From Synergistaceae bacterium (lineage in GTDB: Bacteria > Synergistota > Synergistia > Synergistales > Aminobacteriaceae), in the NCBI GenBank assembly GCA_018436725.1, contig JAHDKT010000022.1:100282-164281 (forward strand): 64,000 nt of DNA. The letters are read 5' to 3'. A program made the position numbers and the translations under genes. Shown piece after piece: positions 53,022 to 63,786 of this stretch; positions within the stretch are counted from its first letter, which is position 1; every line of letters begins with the position of its first letter. The notes beneath the pieces are model-generated. The model was not told where the DNA came from. It searched no databases and saw nothing but the letters and a program-made list of their open reading frames with translations.

Positions 53022-54569
53022 CTACTCCTCGTTCTTGCCTTCCCGCAGCCAGTCGATCCAGTAGAGATCCGTCCGGCGGCTGTGGAGGTTCCGCACGCTT
53101 CCCTGTAAACGCAGCTCCTTGAGCAGCTCCACGTCGAGGTCGGCGATCAGCGCCATTTCGGTGTTGGGAGTCGCTTCCGCCGCCACGGCGTCGTGAGGGA
53201 AGGCGAAGTCGGACGGGGTGAAGATGGCGGACTGGGCATACTGAATATCCATATTCTCCACCTTCGGAATGTTCCCCACGCTGCCGGCGATGGCGACATA
53301 GCACTCGTTCTCGATGGCCCGCGCCTGAGCGCAGCGCCGAACGCGCAGGTAGGCGTTCTTGGTGTCCGTCCAGAAGGGGATGAGCAGAAGATCCATTCCC
53401 TTGATGGCGAGATAGCGAGCCAGCTCCGGAAACTCCACGTCGTAGCAGATGAGGATACCGACCTTGCCGACGTCCGTCTGGAAGACCTTGAGATCGTGCC
53501 CCCCCTGCAAGCCCCAGCAGCGGTACTCGTCCGGCGTAATGTGGAGTTTGTACTGCTGGTCCCAGGTTCCGTCCCGCCGGCAGAGAAAGGTGACGTTGTA
53601 GAGCCTGTTGTTCCGAAGCTCCGGCACGCTTCCCGAGACGATGTTGATGTTGTACGCCACCGCCATCTCCACGAGGTTCCTCCTGAGGTCGGCGGTGTAC
53701 CCTGCGAGCGAACGCATGGCCTCGGCGGGGTCCTCCTGGTCGAACTGCGCGAGCAACGGCGCGTTGAACAGCTCGGGGAAGAGCATGAGGTCGGTGTTGT
53801 ACCCGGCCTGGGTATCCACGAAAAACTCCACCTGCTGCAGAAAATCTTCGAAGGACTCGAAGCTCCGCATCTGCCACTGCACCACGCCCAGGCGCATATA
53901 GGTCTTTACCTTCGAGATGAGACGCTGTCGCTCTTCGTAGTAGATGTTGTTCCATTCGAGAATGACGCCGAACCCCTTCGAGCTGAAATCCTCGGGCCAG
54001 TAGTTCTCCACGATCTTCTTGTAGTGGAAGTCGTTGCTCACCTGGAAGGTCAGCACCGGGTCGGAGATCTCCCGGTTGTTCACCATGCGGATATACTGCT
54101 GAGGCGACTTCTTGTCCGCCCACTCCGCGTACCCCGGAATCCGGCCGCCGATGATGATCCCCTTCAGGTTGAGCGTCTCGCACAGCTCTTTACGCGCGTC
54201 GTAGAGACGGCGGCCGAGCCGTTTTTCCCTGTAGTCGGGGGAGACGAAGATGTCGATTCCGTAGAGATAGTCCCCTTCGGGATCGTGATTCTTCAGATCG
54301 CCCTCCCCGACGATATCCCTGTACGTGTGCCGGTCGCCGTAGCGGGAGTAGTCGATAACGAGCGAAAGCGCGCCCGCCACGACCCGCCCCTTGTCCTCGA
54401 TGCAGAGCTGGCCTTCCGGGAAACGCGCGATCATGGAGGCGAACTGCTCTCTCGTCCACGCCCCCCCCATCTTGGGGTATATTCTGTCCATGATGCGCTT
54501 GACTTCGTCGTAATCCCCGGGGGTGAACTGACGGAGTTCAAGCTCATGCTGGTAGCGTTTTTTAGCCAT
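53022..54569 (-). CDS. GNAT acetyltransferase-nitrilase fusion protein
   Basis: A 515-residue fusion. Residues 1-215 form a GNAT domain (YGIDIFVSPDYREKRLGRRL is the acetyl-CoA loop). Residues 226-500 form a carbon-nitrogen hydrolase with the catalytic triad Glu266 (LFPELFN), Lys341 (YKLHITP) and Cys375 (LICYDVEFPE). The same fusion occurs in the YhcX-like family. The GNAT part may recognise or acetylate the amine product or substrate of the amidase part. The natural substrate is unknown. A TATAAT lies about 38 nt upstream of the ATG. Confidence 0.92.
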   Translation of the reverse strand: MAKKRYQHELELRQFTPGDYDEVKRIMDRIYPKMGGAWTREQFASMIARFPEGQLCIEDKGRVVAGALSLVIDYSRYGDRHTYRDIVGEGDLKNHDPEGDYLYGIDIFVSPDYREKRLGRRLYDARKELCETLNLKGIIIGGRIPGYAEWADKKSPQQYIRMVNNREISDPVLTFQVSNDFHYKKIVENYWPEDFSSKGFGVILEWNNIYYEERQRLISKVKTYMRLGVVQWQMRSFESFEDFLQQVEFFVDTQAGYNTDLMLFPELFNAPLLAQFDQEDPAEAMRSLAGYTADLRRNLVEMAVAYNINIVSGSVPELRNNRLYNVTFLCRRDGTWDQQYKLHITPDEYRCWGLQGGHDLKVFQTDVGKVGILICYDVEFPELARYLAIKGMDLLLIPFWTDTKNAYLRVRRCAQARAIENECYVAIAGSVGNIPKVENMDIQYAQSAIFTPSDFAFPHDAVAAEATPNTEMALIADLDVELLKELRLQGSVRNLHSRRTDLYWIDWLREGKNEE

Positions 54570-56213: not shown

Positions 56214-57479
56214 TCATCTACAAAGAAGGATGGTCAGATCATTGACATTGGTCCCCGTAGGGCCTGTCCGGACAAGGCAACCGCAGGCGTCGAGCGCATG
56301 GTAGGAATCGTTGTCGGCAAGCAGGGCCTCCGCATCCAGTCCAAGGTCGGCGAGCGCCCCTATAGTTCCCCCGTCCACTACGCCTCCCGCCGCGTCCGTC
56401 GGTCCGTCCGTGCCGTCGGAACCGACCGAAATCACGGCCGTCTCCGCAAACCCCTTGATGCCGAACGCCGCGGCCAGCGCCAGCTCCTGATTCCGTCCGC
56501 CTTTCCCCTTCCCCTTGAGCCGGACGATCGTCTCGCCGCCGAGGAGCAGGGCGCAGGGGGGCGAGAGAGGGTTGCCCGAAGACCGGATCTCCTTCGCCAT
56601 GGCGGCGATGAATGCGCCCGCCTCGCGGGCTTCGCAATTCAGCGTCGTCGTCAGCAGAAGCGGCCTGTATCCCAGCGCGGCGACCTCCTGCTCGGCAGCC
56701 CTGCAGAGCGCCGTTACGCTGCCGGTGATCAGCGTGGTCACGTTCGAAAGCGATTTCGGCGTCTCCTTCGCCAGCGCCTCCTTCAGCACCGGACTCAGAG
56801 AAAGCCCGTATTTCCCGACGATCCGCGCAGCGTCCTCGGCCGTCGAGCCGTCCGGATAGGCCGGTCCGGAGGCGATGCTGTCGAGCCTGTCGCCGAGGAC
56901 GTCGGAAAGCACAACCGAGAAGACGTGCGCCGGGGCGACGAACTGGGCGAAGCGCCCCCCCTTGACCGAGGAGAGCCGCTTTCGGATCGTATTGATCTCG
57001 ACGATATCCGCGCCGCATGCGAGCAGTTGATCGGTTACTCCGACGAGGTCGGCGAGGGTGATTCCTTCACCCGGCTTCTCGAAGAGGGCCGAACCGCCGC
57101 CCGAGACGAGGAAGAGCACCGTGTCCTCCGCGGAAAGCCCCCGGACGCTTTCGAGCGCGCGGGCGGTACCGCCGATCGTATTCTCGTCCGGGAAGGGGTG
57201 CCCCGCTTCGTGAATCTCGACGCCCTCGATAGGGCCGCCGGCGTGCCCGTACTTCGTCACGACCACGCCGCCGTCGAGCCGGTCTCCGAGCGTCTCCGCA
57301 GCGGCTTTCGCCATCCGCCACGCGGCCTTTCCGATGGCCACGAGCACGAGCTTCCCTCCGGACCGCACCCTCGCCGAAAAGGCCTCTCCGCGCAGCGCCG
57401 CCTGCACGGCGTTCTCGGGGAGAACGGCCTCTATCGCTTTCCGAGCAATTTTCAAGGCATCCTGCCGCACATCCGTCAT
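56214..57479 (-). CDS. gckA: glycerate 2-kinase (GckA/MOFRL family)
   Basis: A 421-residue class II glycerate kinase that makes 2-phosphoglycerate. The N-terminal DUF4147 domain shows [27 protein letters not shown] and [15 protein letters not shown]. The C-terminal MOFRL domain shows [25 protein letters not shown] and [16 protein letters not shown]. It is the last gene of the sugar-acid operon and would bring glycerate or tartronate-derived carbon into lower glycolysis. Confidence 0.94.
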
Positions 57480-57498
57480 TCCGTCTCCTCCTCCGTTT

Positions 57499-58719
57499 TC
57501 ATTTCCTGTCCGTCAGCACGGTGAAACATTCCACCATCGTCCGTTCTCCGCCGAATGCTCCCGCCTTGGTGACCACCGGAAGACCGTGGTATCGTCCTCC
57601 TCTGAGGCGGACGAGCGGAATTCCCGGCTCGATCTCCTTCTCAAGATCCGTCCCCCCGGCTCCCAACGCCCTGACGATCCAGATTGCGACCTCGCCTCCG
57701 GTAATGAACATTCCGGAGATCCGCGCGGACTCAAGGACCGAGGGAACAACGGCGGCGAGGCTCCGGCAGATATTCTCCGACGCGTTGCCGCTTCGCCCCT
57801 CCTCTATCTGTTCGTCGTCCAGCGAAGAGGCCAGAAGGACGCTCCGGCCGCTTCGAAGCAGTCCCGACACGGCGTCGGAAAGGCGGCGCTCCTCCGAAGG
57901 AGCGTCCTGTAAAAGCTCCCGGATATTCACAAGAACCGGAGCGATCTTCTTCTCCTGGAGCAGCGTCCGCGCCTGCATGGCGCTTTTCGGACTCATACTT
58001 CCGACGACGAAGAGCGCCGGGCGGCTTCCGCTCACCAGAGCCTCCGCCAACCCGGCCGACCCCACCCAGAGGATCTCCTCGGGCGGCAGCGCGGCGCACA
58101 TGCCGTTCACTATCAGGTGCAGATCTCCGTCCGTCTCGGCGTCGAAGGAGTACGAGCCCGAGTATCCGGCCGCCTTCAGAATCTCCGGAATCGCCCCTCC
58201 GCGTATTTCCGCGAGCGTAACGTTGCGGACGTCCGGTCCGCCGGCGCCGCGCAGCGTCTCCTTCAGCGACGAGGTGGTCACAGGTTTGCGAGGATCCCGC
58301 CCCATCTCGGTCTCGGCCACGGGCACTCCGTCGAGGAGCAGCAGATCCTCCCGGACCGTGCGTTTATTTCCGGGGTACGCCGGAGTGAACGCCGTCGCCC
58401 GAAAGCCGAGCGACTCCCGCAGGACGGCTGTTTCTGCGGCGATATTTCCCCGCAGCGTCGAGTCCACCTTTTTGTAGATAACTCTTTTCCCTCGCAGAGG
58501 AAGCAGGTATTCTGCCACCGTCTTCAGGCAGGCGGCAGCGTCCGAAGCGGGAATGTTCCGCGACTCGGTGTCCACGACGACGACCCCCTCTCCCTCAACC
58601 GACGAGAGCGCAGAGGGATCGAGGATCACCGAAGCGTCGTACCCCGCCTTCAAAAACTGAATACCGGTATCGTTCGACCCTGTTAAATCATCCGCGATGA
58701 CGATATATCTCGTGTCCAT
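57499..58719 (-). CDS. DUF1537 four-carbon acid-sugar kinase (DtnK/OtnK-like)
   Basis: A 406-residue member of the four-carbon acid-sugar kinase family. The N-terminal substrate domain begins [19 protein letters not shown] and contains [11 protein letters not shown]. The C-terminal nucleotide domain has [15 protein letters not shown] and the Gly-rich end of the family. Characterised relatives phosphorylate D-threonate (DtnK), D-erythronate or 2-oxo-tetronate (OtnK) at the 4-OH. Directly upstream lies a pdxA2 gene, the classic partner of DtnK, so D-threonate kinase is the best guess. Confidence 0.9.
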
Positions 58720-58738
58720 ACCGCTCCCTCCCGTTCGT

Positions 58739-59725
58739 TCAGGCGCGATTCCGCGCCATGCTGACGGCTGCGCGGATGGCCGCGAGCATGCTCGATTCGT
58801 CGGCCGTCCCCTTGCCGGCCTTGCCGAAGGCGGTCCCGTGATCGACGGAAGTACGGATGATCGGCAGGCCGACCGTGATATTCACTCCGCCCATGAAGTC
58901 GGTCAGCTTCAGGGGGATATGCCCCTGGTCGTGGTACATCGCCACCACGATGTCGAACTCGCCCTTGACGATTTTCAGAAAGACCGTGTCGGGAGGCACC
59001 GGCCCCGCGACGTCGATCCCTTCGCGCCGCGCGTCCTCGATGGCGGGAATGATCTCGTTGATCTCCTCGTTGCCGAAGAGCCCGCTCTCTCCGCTGTGCG
59101 GATTGAGGCCTGCGACCGCGATGCGGGGCTTGACCACCCCAAGACCTTTCGTCGCTTCATCGGCAAGACGGATCACCGAGAGCACCCGTTCGCGCTTCAC
59201 CCTGTCGCACGCCTCGCGCAGCGCGATATGCGTGGACACGTGAATTACGCGGATATCGCCGCCCGTCAGCAGCATCGCGTAATTTTTCGTCCCCGTGAGG
59301 TCGGCGAAGATCTCGGTATGCCCCGAATACGGAATGCCGCCCTCGTGGAGCGCCTCTTTGTTGATCGGGCCGGTAACGACTGCGTCAAGCGCGCCCCGGA
59401 GCGCGTCCTCTATGGCGCGCTTGATATACTCGAAGGCTGCCCGTCCGCACTTCCCCTGCACCTTCGCGAACTCCCACGGTTCGTCGAGCGCTCCCGGAGA
59501 GACGACGTTCACGGCGCCCTCGCGCGCATCTTTCGGGTTTGAGAGCACGTGCAGCGGCGTATCGCTTCCAAGGATCGACATGGCGCGACGAAGCACGTAC
59601 TCGTCGCCGTACAGAACGGGTGTGCACGAAGCGAAGACCTCTTCATGCCGGAGCGCCTTGAGCGCTATCTCGGGGCCGCTCCCCGCAGGGTCTCCGATGG
59701 TGATGCCGATGAACGGTGTATTCAT
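58739..59725 (-). CDS. pdxA2: PdxA2-type 4-phospho-D-threonate/erythronate dehydrogenase
   Basis: A 328-residue PdxA-family oxidative decarboxylase. It starts GITIGDPAGSGPEIALKAL. Metal-binding His residues lie in YSGHTEIFADLTG, GLNPHSGESGLFG and MYHDQGHIPLKL; VGLPIIRTSVDHGTAF is the C-terminal signature. PdxA makes pyridoxine precursors, but the PdxA2 subgroup beside DUF1537 kinases converts 4-phospho-D-threonate or 4-phospho-D-erythronate to DHAP. No other pyridoxine genes are near, supporting a catabolic role. The ATG at 59725 follows AGGAGG. Confidence 0.9.
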   Translation of the reverse strand: MNTPFIGITIGDPAGSGPEIALKALRHEEVFASCTPVLYGDEYVLRRAMSILGSDTPLHVLSNPKDAREGAVNVVSPGALDEPWEFAKVQGKCGRAAFEYIKRAIEDALRGALDAVVTGPINKEALHEGGIPYSGHTEIFADLTGTKNYAMLLTGGDIRVIHVSTHIALREACDRVKRERVLSVIRLADEATKGLGVVKPRIAVAGLNPHSGESGLFGNEEINEIIPAIEDARREGIDVAGPVPPDTVFLKIVKGEFDIVVAMYHDQGHIPLKLTDFMGGVNITVGLPIIRTSVDHGTAFGKAGKGTADESSMLAAIRAAVSMARNRA

Positions 59726-59751
59726 TCTTTGCCTCCTGGAGGATAGCGTAC

Positions 59752-59789
59752 AGCCGGTTCGCCCTGCGTCGACGCGGGGCGAACCGGCT
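59752..59789. repeat. near-perfect 38-nt palindrome between kdgT and pdxA2
   Basis: AGCCGGTTCGCCC (59752-59764) pairs with GGGCGAACCGGCT (59777-59789), and the intervening TGCGTCGACGCG continues the dyad. As RNA this is a 17-bp stem with one G-U pair and a TCGA tetraloop. There is no T-run, so it may be an intercistronic stability or processing hairpin rather than a terminator. Confidence 0.7.
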
Positions 59790-59796
59790 GTCACGA

Positions 59797-60786
59797 TCAG
59801 TTGCCTTCTTCCTTGACGACGTTGTTATGCTGCTTGCACATCCTGCTGAGGAAGTCCACCAGCAGCGGGCAGAGGATCGCGGTGATGACGATCGACGCGC
59901 CGACCTGCACCGTCGCGGCCGCGGCGTAGGGCGCCCAAGTCGGGTCGACCGCCGCGATCGCGGCGGGCGTTCCGGCGGCGTTGCCCGCCGTGGTGCCGAT
60001 GCCGGCGCCGACCGCGTCGCTGCGCTTATCCTTCGACGGGATGAGGAACTTGTAGGCGAAGAAACCGCCGATTCCCGTGACGAGGAGCGTCATCAGGCCC
60101 AGCGCGATGCCGGGGCCTCCCGCCTTTGCGATGTCCATAAGGTTGAGCCCGGCGCCGAGCGGGAAGGAGAAAAAGGGGATGGAGAGCATGACGCCCGGAG
60201 CGAGGAACTTCCGCATATCCTCGTCGAGGTTGCCGAGGATCATGCCGATGATGATCGGAACTACGACCGCCACCATCGCGATGATGGGGATGTTGGCCAG
60301 TCCCGTCATCCCCATGGCCACCATCGTGAAGAAGGGGCCGTCGTTCGTGGAGATGATGGCCACCGCGCCGATGTCCGAGGCGTCGCCGTACTTCTGGGCG
60401 AGCGCGGTGTAGAGGCCGCCGTTGGAGTTCGCCATGGCGGCGATGAGCGCGAGGGGCGTCAGTCCGAAGAGAGAAGCCTCCGGCCCCATGAGCTTCCCCA
60501 CGACAAGGCCTATTGAAATACCGAGGAGTATTTTGACCGTGTTCAGCACGAACCCCTTCCAGAGTGCGACTCCGGCCGTCTTGATGGTGATCTGCGCGCC
60601 GCTGCAGAAGAGGAGCACGGCGATGAGCGGCAGAGCGCCGTTCTTGAAGAGCGCTGTCGTGAAGCTGCCTATCTTGAGCGATTCGGGAGCGAATGTGTTC
60701 ACGACGGCGCCGAGGAGCAGGAAAACCACCATGAGACCGCCGGGAACCTTCTGTATCGTCTTGAGAATCGGGACTTTTCCGGTCAT
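59797..60786 (-). CDS. kdgT: 2-keto-3-deoxygluconate permease family transporter
   Basis: A 329-residue membrane protein with about 10 segments in the KdgT family. It shows IQKVPGGLMVVFLLLGAVVN, LTPLALIAAMANSNGGLYTA, STNDGPFFTMVAMG and GTTAGNAAGTPAAIAAVDP, which are highly conserved. KdgT proteins are proton symporters for 2-keto-3-deoxygluconate and related sugar acids. The ATG at 60786 has GGAAGG 8 nt upstream. In this operon it is the only transporter and probably brings in the aldonic or tetronic acid. Confidence 0.94.
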   Translation of the reverse strand: MTGKVPILKTIQKVPGGLMVVFLLLGAVVNTFAPESLKIGSFTTALFKNGALPLIAVLLFCSGAQITIKTAGVALWKGFVLNTVKILLGISIGLVVGKLMGPEASLFGLTPLALIAAMANSNGGLYTALAQKYGDASDIGAVAIISTNDGPFFTMVAMGMTGLANIPIIAMVAVVVPIIIGMILGNLDEDMRKFLAPGVMLSIPFFSFPLGAGLNLMDIAKAGGPGIALGLMTLLVTGIGGFFAYKFLIPSKDKRSDAVGAGIGTTAGNAAGTPAAIAAVDPTWAPYAAAATVQVGASIVITAILCPLLVDFLSRMCKQHNNVVKEEGN

Positions 60787-60835
60787 AGTATGCACCTTCC
60801 TTTGCAAGATAGAGTATTCTCTGGAAAAAGAGACT

Positions 60836-61993
60836 TCAGAATGTCGACGTCAGCTTGTAGATGCCGAACTCCATGTGTTTCAGCGCTTCCGCCTTGGTCA
60901 GCTTGCCGTCGCAGACCTTGAGGATCTCCGCGAAGACCCGTTCGCCGACTTCGGGAATGGATTCGACGCCGTCGATGATGGTCCCCGCGTTGATATCGAT
61001 GTTCTCCTCCATCATGACGTAGGTCTTCGGGTTGCCCGTGATCTTGATGACCGGAGCGAGAGGAAAGCCGGTCGGCGACCCTCTCCCCGTCGTGAAGATC
61101 ACGATCTGCGCGCCCCCCGCGACCATGCCGGTGATGGATTCGATATCCTGCCCCGGCGTGTCCATGACGTAGAGGCCATTGCCCGGCGCTCTCTCGCCAT
61201 AGTCAAGAACGCCTTCGAGAGGGCTGGCGCCCCCCTTGTAAATACAGCCGAGCGATTTCTCTTCGATGGTGGTGAGCCCTCCCTGGATATTGCCGGGCGT
61301 GGGCTGGCTCCCCCGCATGTCGACGCCCATCGCGTTCGCCTTCGCCTCGCAGGCGCGAACGATCTCGAAGAGCTTGTCCGCCACTTCCTTCGATACGGCC
61401 CTACGTGCGAGAACGTGCTCCGCGCCGATGAGTTCCGTCGTCTCCGAGAGGATGGACGTCCCGCCGAGGCCGATCAGCTTGTCGGACACGTAGCCGTGCA
61501 CCGGGTTCGCCGCAAGGCCCGACGTCGTGTCCGAACCGCCGCATTCGAGAGCGAGCACGAGGTTCGAAATATCCGCCTCCTCGCGGGTCATCATCGCGAC
61601 CTCCTGGCTGATCGCGCGGGCTATCCTGAGCCCCTGCTCCTGCGCCTTGAGCGTGCCGCCGCACTTCTGGATGACCAGCGACTCCACCCGCTTTCCCGAC
61701 TTCGCGATTTCTTCGTGAAGACGTTCCGCCTGCACGCTTTCGCACCCCAGGCCGATCACCAGCACGGCCGCGACGTTCGGGTTCGTCCCCAGTCCTGCGA
61801 GGGTTCTTGCGGTGATCTCAAGATCGGGGCCTATCTGTGCGCACCCGTGCTGGTTGGGAAGCGCGATCGCTCCCTCCACCTGCTCCGCTATTCGGGCCGC
61901 GACCGTCGAGGCGCACACCGACGCGGGGATAACGGCGATGTGGTTCCGTATACCCACGCGTCCGTCGGGACGGACATACCCTCTGAACTTCAT
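60836..61993 (-). CDS. UxaA family hydrolyase, large (C-terminal) subunit
   Basis: A 385-residue large fragment of the altronate/galactarate dehydratase family. It shows YVRPDGRVGIRNHIAVIPAS, ALPNQHGCAQIG, LALECGGSDTTSGLAANP and FTTGRGSPTGFPLAPVIKI. Its start overlaps the stop of the SAF-domain subunit (ATGA). These enzymes remove water from sugar acids to give 2-keto-3-deoxy acids and need Fe2+ or another metal. In E. coli UxaA both parts are in one chain; here they are split. The exact substrate is not evident; altronate-like acids are likely. Confidence 0.93.
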   Translation of the reverse strand: MKFRGYVRPDGRVGIRNHIAVIPASVCASTVAARIAEQVEGAIALPNQHGCAQIGPDLEITARTLAGLGTNPNVAAVLVIGLGCESVQAERLHEEIAKSGKRVESLVIQKCGGTLKAQEQGLRIARAISQEVAMMTREEADISNLVLALECGGSDTTSGLAANPVHGYVSDKLIGLGGTSILSETTELIGAEHVLARRAVSKEVADKLFEIVRACEAKANAMGVDMRGSQPTPGNIQGGLTTIEEKSLGCIYKGGASPLEGVLDYGERAPGNGLYVMDTPGQDIESITGMVAGGAQIVIFTTGRGSPTGFPLAPVIKITGNPKTYVMMEENIDINAGTIIDGVESIPEVGERVFAEILKVCDGKLTKAEALKHMEFGIYKLTSTF

Positions 61994-62316
61994 GATGCGG
62001 CGCCCCCTTTCGCGGATGTCTTTCCCGAGGCGAGATCCCCCCGCCCGCGGAGGCTTTCGAGATTATGCACATGGACGTGCGCCCCGACCGCTATGGACAC
62101 GGTCGCTCGGCCGATCACTTCGCCGTACTTCAGCACGTCGCCTCCCTCGGGGATAGCGACGAGCGCGAACTTGTGGCCGAAGGGTATGGCGTCGACCACT
62201 TTCATCGTCTCCATGCATCCGTTGCGCTCGAAGGAAACCTCGTCCCCGGCGCACAAATCCATCAGCGCGGTGGCGACGCTGTCTCCTCCGTGTGTCATGA
62301 GCGCTCCACGTTTCAA
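61990..62316 (-). CDS. UxaA family hydrolyase, small SAF-domain subunit
   Basis: A 108-residue SAF-domain protein matching the N-terminus of UxaA/GarD. It shows GDSVATALMDLCAGDEV, AIPFGHKFALVAIPEGGDVLKYGEVIG and VHVHNLES, the last being a family signature with likely metal-site His. The start is a TTG at 62316 behind GGGGGGAG; an ATG at 62298 is possible but cuts the conserved N-terminus. It works with the large subunit encoded next. Confidence 0.92.
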   Translation of the reverse strand: MKRGALMTHGGDSVATALMDLCAGDEVSFERNGCMETMKVVDAIPFGHKFALVAIPEGGDVLKYGEVIGRATVSIAVGAHVHVHNLESLRGRGDLASGKTSAKGGAAS

Positions 62317-62335
62317 GGCTCTCCCCCCTCTCCTT

Positions 62336-63682
62336 TCAGATTACGAACATCGTCTCGTCGCTCCCGGACTCTCCATTCTCCCGCGTTCGCCCCTCTCCTC
62401 GCGAAGCTACCGCATCGACGATAACGGCCACCCCGTCCGGAATGACGGTGATCGACGCGTCCTGTTTGCCCAGGATGCGCTCCGCCAGCGTCAGCGCCTC
62501 TTCCAGAGACGGGGCCCACCGCATGTTGAGATGCTCCACCATCTCTTTCGGCGCCGACGTCACCATGATCACCGTAAAATTCATCAACACCCTGGCGAAT
62601 ATCTGGATCTGCCACTGGTCGGGCTCCGTCTGATCGCGTCCTCTGGCCATGATCATGTCCATGATACCTTCGGGCGTCGGGATCGTCTCGAACGTACGGT
62701 AGAAGGCCTCGCCGCCGTGGCCGTCGCTGCATTCCGCGGCGACGATGATGACGCCCCCCTTGGTGCAGGACGCCTCTCCGGCGGTCATGCTCTTTACGGC
62801 CTGATAGAGGTTCTGGTCGAGAGGATACCCCGCGTTGCTCGTGATCACGATATCGGCGGGAACGGCCTCGACCCTGCCGTACCTGCCGACGAATTCGCAC
62901 CCCTTCTCGTGCGCCGCTTCCATGTCGCCGCTGAAGGCGGCCACGATATGCTTTTCCGAATCGATGACGACGTTGCAGACAAAGGCAAGCCCCGTCGTGC
63001 GCGCGGCGAAGACCATGTCGGCGTGGATGGGGTTCCCCCCGAGAATGCCCGTCCGCGCCCTGTCGTGCGCGATGAACTCCGCGCAGTGATTCGCCATGAC
63101 CGTCTTGTAGCTCGCCACGCCGGGAAGGACGCTCTTCCTGCCTCCGGAGAAACCAGCGAAAAAGTGCGGCTCGATGAAGCCCTCGGCCACGAGGAGATCC
63201 GCCTCGACGGCGAGTCTGCTCAGGATCATCTCGCCGCCGGAGGGCAGCGTCCCCAGATGGACGAGAGCGGCGTCGTCGTGGCTGTCGTGGACGACGATGC
63301 GCTCGTTCTTTACGATCTCGGAACCGTACTTCTTCAGGAGTTCTTCGGGGGTAGTGGCGCGATGGCCTCCGGTCGATACCAGGATGGTGATTTCCGCCTC
63401 GGGGTTTCCCGCCCGCACCTCTTCGAGGAGCAGGGGCATTATGATGGCGCTCGGGACCGGACGGGTATGGTCGCTGGAGATGATGACCACTTTTTTCTTC
63501 CCCTTCGCGAGTTCGCGCAGAGGGGCCGAACCGATGGGATTGTCGAGCGATCTTCTGACGATCTCACGCTCGGGCGCGTCGGCCTTCAGCTCGTGAAGGC
63601 TCGAAACGAGGACGGCTTTCAGCCGTCCGTCAGGAATGTCGCAGGAAAGCGCCGATGTTCCGTAGGGAATGGACACTCTCAT
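62336..63682 (-). CDS. larA: LarA family nickel-dependent 2-hydroxyacid racemase/epimerase
   Basis: A 448-residue LarA homologue. By position the catalytic set of Lactobacillus LarA is kept: His107 (STGGHRATT), His173 (EPHFFAGFSG), Lys183 (GGRKSVLPG), which would bind the nickel-pincer cofactor, and His199 (MANHCAEF). DHTRPVPSAI at 71-80 is another family motif. LarA interconverts lactate enantiomers, but many homologues act on other 2-hydroxyacids, including sugar acids. As first gene of a sugar-acid operon it may epimerise C2 of an aldonic or tetronic acid. Cofactor genes larB, larC and larE are not in the window. Confidence 0.9.
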   Translation of the reverse strand: MRVSIPYGTSALSCDIPDGRLKAVLVSSLHELKADAPEREIVRRSLDNPIGSAPLRELAKGKKKVVIISSDHTRPVPSAIIMPLLLEEVRAGNPEAEITILVSTGGHRATTPEELLKKYGSEIVKNERIVVHDSHDDAALVHLGTLPSGGEMILSRLAVEADLLVAEGFIEPHFFAGFSGGRKSVLPGVASYKTVMANHCAEFIAHDRARTGILGGNPIHADMVFAARTTGLAFVCNVVIDSEKHIVAAFSGDMEAAHEKGCEFVGRYGRVEAVPADIVITSNAGYPLDQNLYQAVKSMTAGEASCTKGGVIIVAAECSDGHGGEAFYRTFETIPTPEGIMDMIMARGRDQTEPDQWQIQIFARVLMNFTVIMVTSAPKEMVEHLNMRWAPSLEEALTLAERILGKQDASITVIPDGVAVIVDAVASRGEGRTRENGESGSDETMFVI

Positions 63683-63786
63683 ATTCTCCCGCCTCCTTGG
63701 CAATAGTCTGTGTGGCTGCTGCAAAGGAATTCGTGAAAACTCCGGTACATAGTATCGCGGCAAACGAACGAGAGGTCAAGAACAAA

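Follow-up and report, generated by a model that had tools for sequence, protein, structure and literature searches.

At one end of the 64,000-nucleotide stretch of Synergistaceae DNA analysed here (contig JAHDKT010000022.1; hereafter the window), seven genes on the minus strand at 56214-63682 encode a nickel-pincer-nucleotide racemase of the LarA family, both subunits of a split UxaA/GarD-type dehydratase, a KdgT-family permease, a PdxA-family dehydrogenase (PdxA2), a DUF1537 kinase and a glycerate 2-kinase (GckA). We propose, with a probability that we put at roughly 0.45, that this LarA is a short-aldonate C2 isomerase that would feed two branches of its own operon, supplying D-threonate from D-erythronate and D-glycerate from L-glycerate. 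The proposal is built on gene content and order, cofactor-site residues, a pocket signature, the presence of cofactor-making genes and a grouping that recurs among relatives. The features, with gene coordinates from the list of open reading frames in the window, are these:

63692..63698, minus strand: AAGGAGG, the ribosome-binding site of larA, from reading of the sequence
62336..63682, minus strand: larA, nickel-pincer-nucleotide 2-hydroxyacid racemase/epimerase of the lactate-racemase group, predicted short-aldonate C2 isomerase (Pfam, NF033504, PDB 2yjg, residues)
61990..62316, minus strand: uxaA1, SAF-domain small subunit of a split UxaA/GarD-type dehydratase, TTG start (Pfam, PDB 3k3s)
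60836..61993, minus strand: uxaA2, large subunit of the same dehydratase, candidate D-threonate (or other 2S,3R aldonate) dehydratase
59797..60807, minus strand: kdgT, KdgT-family permease, predicted tetronate importer, TTG start (Pfam)
58739..59725, minus strand: pdxA2, PdxA family, predicted 4-phospho-D-threonate dehydrogenase, ATG start, with a GTG upstream at 59794
57499..58719, minus strand: DUF1537 kinase gene (SBD_N/NBD_C), acid-sugar kinase, predicted D-threonate kinase (Pfam)
56214..57479, minus strand: gckA, glycerate 2-kinase family, DUF4147/MOFRL (Pfam, PDB 2b8n)

A preliminary description of this DNA had singled out seven mostly tightly spaced genes in one orientation, and the arrangement is borne out: from larA to gckA the intergenic gaps are 19, -4, 28, 71, 19 and 19 bp (computed from the coordinates with the ATG at 59725 as the start of pdxA2), and all seven products have Pfam matches above cut-off. 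A scan for promoter-like and terminator-like sites was uninformative, returning three of the former, where 1.5 are expected, and four of the latter, where 5.9 are expected. The window ends with its contig 318 bp upstream of larA, and a further operon partner may therefore lie beyond it.

Under our proposal KdgT would import a tetronate, and LarA would invert C2 of three- and four-carbon aldonates. D-Threonate would thus arise from D-erythronate and D-glycerate from L-glycerate, and epimers otherwise wrong for the kinases of the operon would become usable. The DUF1537 kinase would phosphorylate D-threonate and PdxA2 would oxidise and decarboxylate the product to dihydroxyacetone phosphate, while GckA would convert D-glycerate to 2-phosphoglycerate. 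The split UxaA may provide a second, non-phosphorylating exit by dehydrating D-threonate, a (2S,3R) acid, to 2-oxo-4-hydroxybutyrate. D-Erythronate is the C2 epimer of D-threonate, and LarA would thus supply the form needed both by the kinase and by such a dehydratase. We infer all of the substrates, the direction of flow and the service of both branches by one LarA; a single promiscuous racemase fits the breadth reported for the lactate group.

That the larA product belongs to the LarA superfamily is clear from its Lar_N and LarA_C domains (245.8 and 216.3 bits) and its similarity to PDB 2yjg (542 bits). All eight positions examined in an alignment to the Lactobacillus plantarum enzyme (D72, R75, H108, H174, K184, H200, Q295 and K298 in the numbering of that protein) are retained, as the preliminary description had claimed of the cofactor site; they include the catalytic His108 and His174 and the nickel-pincer-nucleotide-binding R75, K184 and H200, roles that we take from PMC11770544. 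Two features place it in the lactate racemase group (LAR): a score of 629 bits against a cut-off of 460 for NF033504, the NCBI equivalog for nickel-dependent lactate racemase, and a specificity pocket that reads F, F, W, Q at the aligned positions. The usual pocket of that group is F, F, W, E/Q, that of the gluconate epimerases (GntE) E, V, A, H (PMC11770544), and the latter signature is absent from the window LarA. With the malate, LarAH10 and hexonate-type LarA models the protein scores below cut-off, reaching 72.2 against 740 and 26.1 against 500 bits with the last of these. Every lactate-group enzyme assayed in PMC11770544 was active on glycerate and 2-hydroxybutyrate, and the substrates of the group extend to lactate, 2,4-dihydroxybutyrate and both 4-deoxy-tetronate pairs, 4-deoxy-D-threonate and 4-deoxy-D-erythronate being epimerised weakly. 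For LarAH43, which has Q at the fourth pocket position, the reported kcat/KM values, in M-1 s-1, are 1.14e5 for glycerate, 8.3e4 for lactate and 400 for 2,4-dihydroxybutyrate, falling to 170 for the D and 80 for the L pair of 4-deoxy-tetronates (PMC11770544). The F-F-W-Q pocket, taken with this substrate range, points to C3-C4 acids over hexonates. Across the 62 LarA loci described below, the fourth position is Q in 27, E in 17, C in 14, T in two and M in one, with no residue in the remaining locus.

The genome appears equipped to make the cofactor. It has a match of 409 bits to PF01969, which we take to be the LarC family, two matches above cut-off to TIGR00268, presumably the LarE family, and a second AIRC-domain match of 49.6 bits in a LarB-sized frame of 252 codons, which is probably LarB; a lack of larB, larC and larE, raised earlier as a possible objection to the whole scheme, is thus not what we find. 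A genome-wide profile search places Lar_N at six further sites besides the operon, one of the seven being marginal (23.4 bits against a cut-off of 23.3), and the earlier statement that no other sugar-acid epimerase of this kind is encoded holds for the window and fails for the genome. Contig C100 of the same genome (L127:7991-13945) carries a second LarA operon, in which a gene of the lactate-permease family accompanies those for a divergent LarA, for a UxaA-type protein fused into a single chain and for a Mannitol_dh protein. This second LarA is 35% identical to that of the window and has the LarAH10 family as its top model (468 bits, below the cut-off of 540); the Mannitol_dh protein is closest to tagaturonate reductase (329.7 bits, below 359), and the operon is a candidate hexonate setting.

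KdgT, PdxA and DUF1537 kinase families, the gene set of the D-threonate pathway, are encoded side by side in the window. The kdgT product matches the Pfam KdgT family at 392.3 bits; PdxA2 matches PdxA at 370.3 bits and PDB entries 2hi1 and 6e85 at 317 and 298.5 bits; and the two domains of the DUF1537 kinase score 179.7 and 98.6 bits. The known route for D-erythronate, DenD/OtnK/OtnC/OtnI, uses OtnC, and no match above cut-off to the OtnC model was found in the genome, the best scoring 62 bits against 250. A KdgT of Ralstonia eutropha imports D-threonate, and KdgT with D-threonate kinase and 4-phospho-D-threonate dehydrogenase enabled growth of E. coli on D-threonate (PMC10079672). Both PdxA genes of the genome, the second on contig C99, adjoin a DUF1537 kinase gene. 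The preliminary description had suggested that LarA might funnel erythronate into the threonate branch; the context favours this, through the low OtnC score, the weak activity of lactate-group enzymes on 4-deoxy-tetronates and the recurrence of tetronate genes beside larA in 11 of 22 genomes and in two or more regions of the LarA tree, while the reaction itself is a prediction.

The glycerate branch has its own evidence. GckA combines DUF4147 and MOFRL domains (264.4 and 125 bits) and resembles a solved glycerate kinase, PDB 2b8n, at 464 bits, which puts it in the glycerate 2-kinase family; it falls below both NCBI glycerate 2-kinase equivalogs, with 251.8 against 550 and 206.1 against 670 bits. 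At three other loci the gene upstream of larA encodes an unrelated glycerate kinase, of family PF02595, recognised by Pfam in L029 and by similarity to the L029 protein in L030 and L036. Glycerate kinases of two unrelated families thus adjoin LarA, a point overlooked in the preliminary description, as was the preference of LarAH43 for glycerate and lactate, and they do so in three distinct regions of the LarA tree. These recurrences, the high activity of LarAH43 on glycerate and the loci where larA and gckA stand alone together (L008 and L094, judged duplicates) would also suit a LarA that is a glycerate racemase only, supplying D-glycerate to GckA while the tetronate genes form a separate branch of the operon. 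We consider that version unlikely, because gckA lies near larA in just 6 of 22 genomes of the same family, whereas a tetronate gene does so in 11 of them, and kdgT adjoins larA at four loci with no gckA within 6 kb and no dtnK-pdxA2 beside it (L102, L107, L110 and L111; dtnK being the DUF1537 kinase gene). No mention of a 'glycerate racemase' was found in the open-access literature searched.

Comparative genomics indicates that the grouping is kept among relatives in varying subsets, which bears on the question of conserved gene order that had been raised at the outset. A scan of genome contigs with the window LarA as query gave 62 loci, and a match at E <= 1e-100 was present in 22 of 81 genomes of the same family; the closest named relatives are proteins of Synergistales/Synergistaceae metagenome-assembled genomes. 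Neighbours are query genes (kdgT, dtnK, pdxA2, gckA, uxaA and others) within 6 kb of larA, save for G009, where 1.5 kb on each side was covered; Pfam was applied to selected neighbours only, and a blank neighbour entry in the LarA tree denotes no query gene within 6 kb. At least one of kdgT, dtnK and pdxA2 occurs in this range in 11 of the 22 genomes (G000, G001, G002, G003, G005, G011, G063, G065, G069, on the other strand, G075 and G076), gckA in six (G000, G001, G002, G005, G011, G017) and split uxaA in four (G000, G003, G005, G014), while six (G066, G067, G068, G070, G071, G072) have neither these genes nor a lactate permease near larA. Several contigs end near larA, so all such counts are lower bounds. 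The arrangements include larA-uxaA1-uxaA2-kdgT-dtnK-gckA in L096, which lacks pdxA2 and has a 75% identical copy on another contig, and larA-uxaA1-uxaA2-kdgT-pdxA2 in L097, where the contig then ends. In the congener G014, larA-uxaA1-uxaA2 ends one contig and kdgT-pdxA2-dtnK-gckA lies on another, which combined give the order of the window; L098, L099 and L100 have larA-pdxA2-dtnK-gckA and no uxaA. Mixed partners (asparaginase, peptidases, iron alcohol dehydrogenase, FtsX, phosphorylase, WYL, GntR and NUDIX) appear among the chosen neighbours in L028, L101, L102, L103, L104, L109 and L110. The assembly (4.78 Mb in 127 contigs, 99.45% complete) is 7.07% contaminated, and contamination is an unlikely origin for the operon because its gene set recurs in the same family.

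In a LarA tree of 79 rows, which omits L094, L095, L097, L098 and L110, judged duplicates of L008, L009, L014, L010 and L013, as well as L069 (36% identity, with no residue at the last two pocket positions), the window protein falls in an eight-row clade (100/99), all members of which have tetronate, split-uxaA or gckA neighbours. Tetronate neighbours recur in an adjoining clade (L102, L107, L108) and in a distant one (L012, L013, L111; 100/95), and the pairing of LarA with tetronate genes has accordingly arisen or persisted in two or more distinct regions of the tree. Three independent origins had been considered and were given up, since the window clade and L102/L107/L108 are neighbouring clades that may share one origin. 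The next branches outside the window clade include L106 and L011, whose LarAs adjoin a lactate permease. Their position, and the lactate racemase equivalog that the window protein passes, could suggest an ordinary lactate racemase that arrived in a sugar-acid operon and acts there independently. Such a reading seems distinctly unlikely to us, given that no lactate permease match lies within 6 kb of larA in the eight-row clade and that LarA is repeatedly paired with kdgT and with glycerate kinases.

The split dehydratase belongs with the UxaA/GarD sugar-acid dehydratases. Its small subunit carries a SAF domain (37.1 bits against a cut-off of 21) and resembles the N-terminal piece of altronate hydrolase, PDB 3k3s, at 56 bits; its large subunit carries GD_AH_C and GD_AH_second (332.2 and 147.9 bits) and matches GarD 6u7l at 208 bits, with Cys27, Cys51, Cys84 and Cys151 aligned to cysteines of GarD. 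These four are kept in 56, 55, 56 and 56 of 56 rows, 51 of which differ, and appear to be the four cysteines described as common to UxaA/GarD dehydratases and missing from sulfolactate sulfo-lyase (PMC6336799). It falls short of TIGR03248, the equivalog for galactarate dehydratase (GarD), which the subunits match at 229.4 and 32.4 bits against 730.85. Two members of the family, both D-arabinonate dehydratases picked for (2S,3R) substrates, convert D-threonate to 2-oxo-4-hydroxybutyrate (PMC10079672). Split uxaA genes occur with gckA and no larA in L180. A ketopantoate-reductase-like gene follows uxaA2 by 12 bp in L184 (8551-9555), and another directly precedes larA in L033 (9042-9998); that these enzymes might reduce 2-oxo-4-hydroxybutyrate is speculation.

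A partnership of LarA with split UxaA recurs outside the family. Fourteen Clostridia LarA rows (L052-L054, L056-L065, L067) form one clade (100/100), all with Cys at the fourth pocket position, and a split uxaA follows larA on the same strand in 14/14, within 110 bp in 13 and at 1.7 kb in L060; gckA lies within 6 kb in ten of the 14, and a GntP permease is present in ten. By one residue, C357, these loci would be of the kind of LarAH42, an enzyme weak throughout, with a best value of 610 M-1 s-1 on 2-hydroxybutyrate (PMC11770544). In a tree of UxaA2 the Clostridia rows linked to LarA group in a single clade (100/99); the window type stands among LarA-free rows in a neighbouring group (91/88; long-branch warnings for L123 and L124). 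That tree omits L057, whose uxaA2 is cut, and its rows L074, L075 and L076, labelled larA-free, are short-locus genes of L009, L096 and L014, so that its larQ and nolar counts mean little; it fits two separate LarA-split UxaA pairings, and one pairing followed by losses is also possible.

The same association can be read differently, with LarA epimerising a pentonate or hexonate at C2 to provide the split UxaA with its substrate, KDPG-aldolase-type enzymes elsewhere completing the route and GckA consuming the glycerate released at its end; the preliminary description had likewise entertained a hexonate epimerised ahead of UxaA. The UxaA/GarD family is known to act on D-arabinonate and D-altronate (PMC6336799), larA is followed by split uxaA both in the window type and at every Cys-type locus, and the genome has four KDPG-aldolase-family matches above cut-off, all outside the operon. 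The lack of KDG kinase and aldolase reported earlier is therefore true of the operon and, for the aldolase, not of the genome, where KDG kinase was not searched for, and we have dropped the missing aldolase as a strong argument for a C3-C4 substrate of UxaA. A hexonate is nevertheless weakened by a pocket of the lactate-group pattern in place of E-V-A-H, by the very low scores with hexonate-type models and by the loci L098, L099 and L100, where larA stays with pdxA2-dtnK-gckA although uxaA is absent; we think this route very improbable.

Returning to a LarA that serves both tetronate and glycerate branches, several observations weigh against it. KdgT scores 225.8 bits with TIGR00793 (cut-off 453.8), PdxA2 347 with PRK03371, the D-threonate 4-phosphate dehydrogenase model (cut-off 583), and the DUF1537 kinase 267.6 with the D-threonate kinase model (cut-off 450); kinase and dehydrogenase thus fall short of their NCBI equivalogs and, KdgT being below its own cut-off too, the exact tetronate is a prediction. 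The rate of LarAH43 on the 4-deoxy-D-tetronate pair is about 670-fold below that on glycerate, and E. coli UxaA, though part of the D-threonate screen, is not named among the active enzymes (PMC10079672). The pocket residue is uncoupled from setting, Q occurring beside a lactate permease (L011) and E in the tetronate setting of L099 and L100, which led us to reject Q at the fourth position as a glycerate or tetronate marker. Eleven of the 22 genomes, including G014 with its contig end, have no kdgT, dtnK or pdxA2 within 6 kb of larA, and three (G009, G012, G073) have a lactate permease there. Finally, split uxaA occurs with kdgT, dtnK and pdxA2 in L182 and L184, and pdxA2-dtnK beside uxaA in L222, all without larA, so LarA is not essential to the gene set. 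Sequence cannot separate a two-branch LarA from one acting on glycerate alone or on lactate alone, and both are live rivals.

A more ambitious version would make this LarA the first nickel-pincer tetronate C2-epimerase, giving D-erythronate access to a D-threonate operon that has a phosphorylating and a dehydrating exit, with the split UxaA as a natural D-threonate dehydratase. The Clostridia Cys-type LarAs would then be another example of this partnership, and the published assays would have overlooked their true substrate. Taken jointly, these claims seem to us doubtful. The physiological significance of LarAH42 and LarAH43 is said still to be determined (PMC11770544), and the recurring genetic setting links C3-C4 aldonates with one clade of LarA and split UxaA with a second clade, which has the residue type of LarAH42. 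If our proposal is true, the D-threonate pathway would gain a redox-neutral entry for D-erythronate, in addition to the DenD/OtnK/OtnC/OtnI route, and the operon would offer a candidate natural D-threonate dehydratase; among the enzymes screened in PMC10079672, only two D-arabinonate dehydratases carried out that dehydration, which is called flux-limiting. When a larA-like gene has a sugar kinase or hydratase nearby, it may encode a sugar epimerase (PMC7583248). No joint mention of lactate racemase with DUF1537 or altronate dehydratase was found in the open-access literature, and the combination of LarA, tetronate genes, split UxaA and GckA is unreported as far as our searches reach, the supplementary neighbour tables of PMC7583248 lying outside them. 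Near the operon, at 53022-54569 of the window, lies a gene for a protein with a GNAT-like N-terminal and a carbon-nitrogen hydrolase C-terminal domain.

The components of the operon have analogues in several known systems. Sulfolactate sulfo-lyase, SuyAB, is a two-subunit member of the same superfamily as the split UxaA (PMC6336799). To read the split UxaA as SuyAB would make LarA a sulfolactate racemase; this reading was dropped because the four cysteines reported missing from SuyAB, judged from its description and not from a SuyB sequence, are present here. With the UxaA/GarD superfamily, including the D-arabinonate dehydratases active on D-threonate (PMC6336799, PMC10079672), the window enzyme shares domains and the four cysteines, but it is split in two subunits and has candidate substrates only. 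The D-threonate catabolism of R. eutropha (PMC10079672) employs the KdgT, DUF1537 kinase and PdxA2 families that adjoin in the window, to which the latter adds LarA, split UxaA and GckA, its kinase and PdxA2 being sub-equivalog. The Clostridia Cys-type loci likewise have LarA followed by split UxaA, with gckA commonly near, but their LarAs form a separate clade, 47-51% identical to that of the window, with GntP as the frequent permease and no kdgT, dtnK or pdxA2 match within 6 kb of larA. The window LarA agrees in its model, its residues, its F-F-W-Q pocket and the Q at the fourth position with the lactate racemase group, especially LarAH43 of Enterocloster asparagiformis (PMC11770544); in this comparison of sequences, what sets the window protein apart is its setting among KdgT, DUF1537 kinase, PdxA2, split UxaA and GckA.

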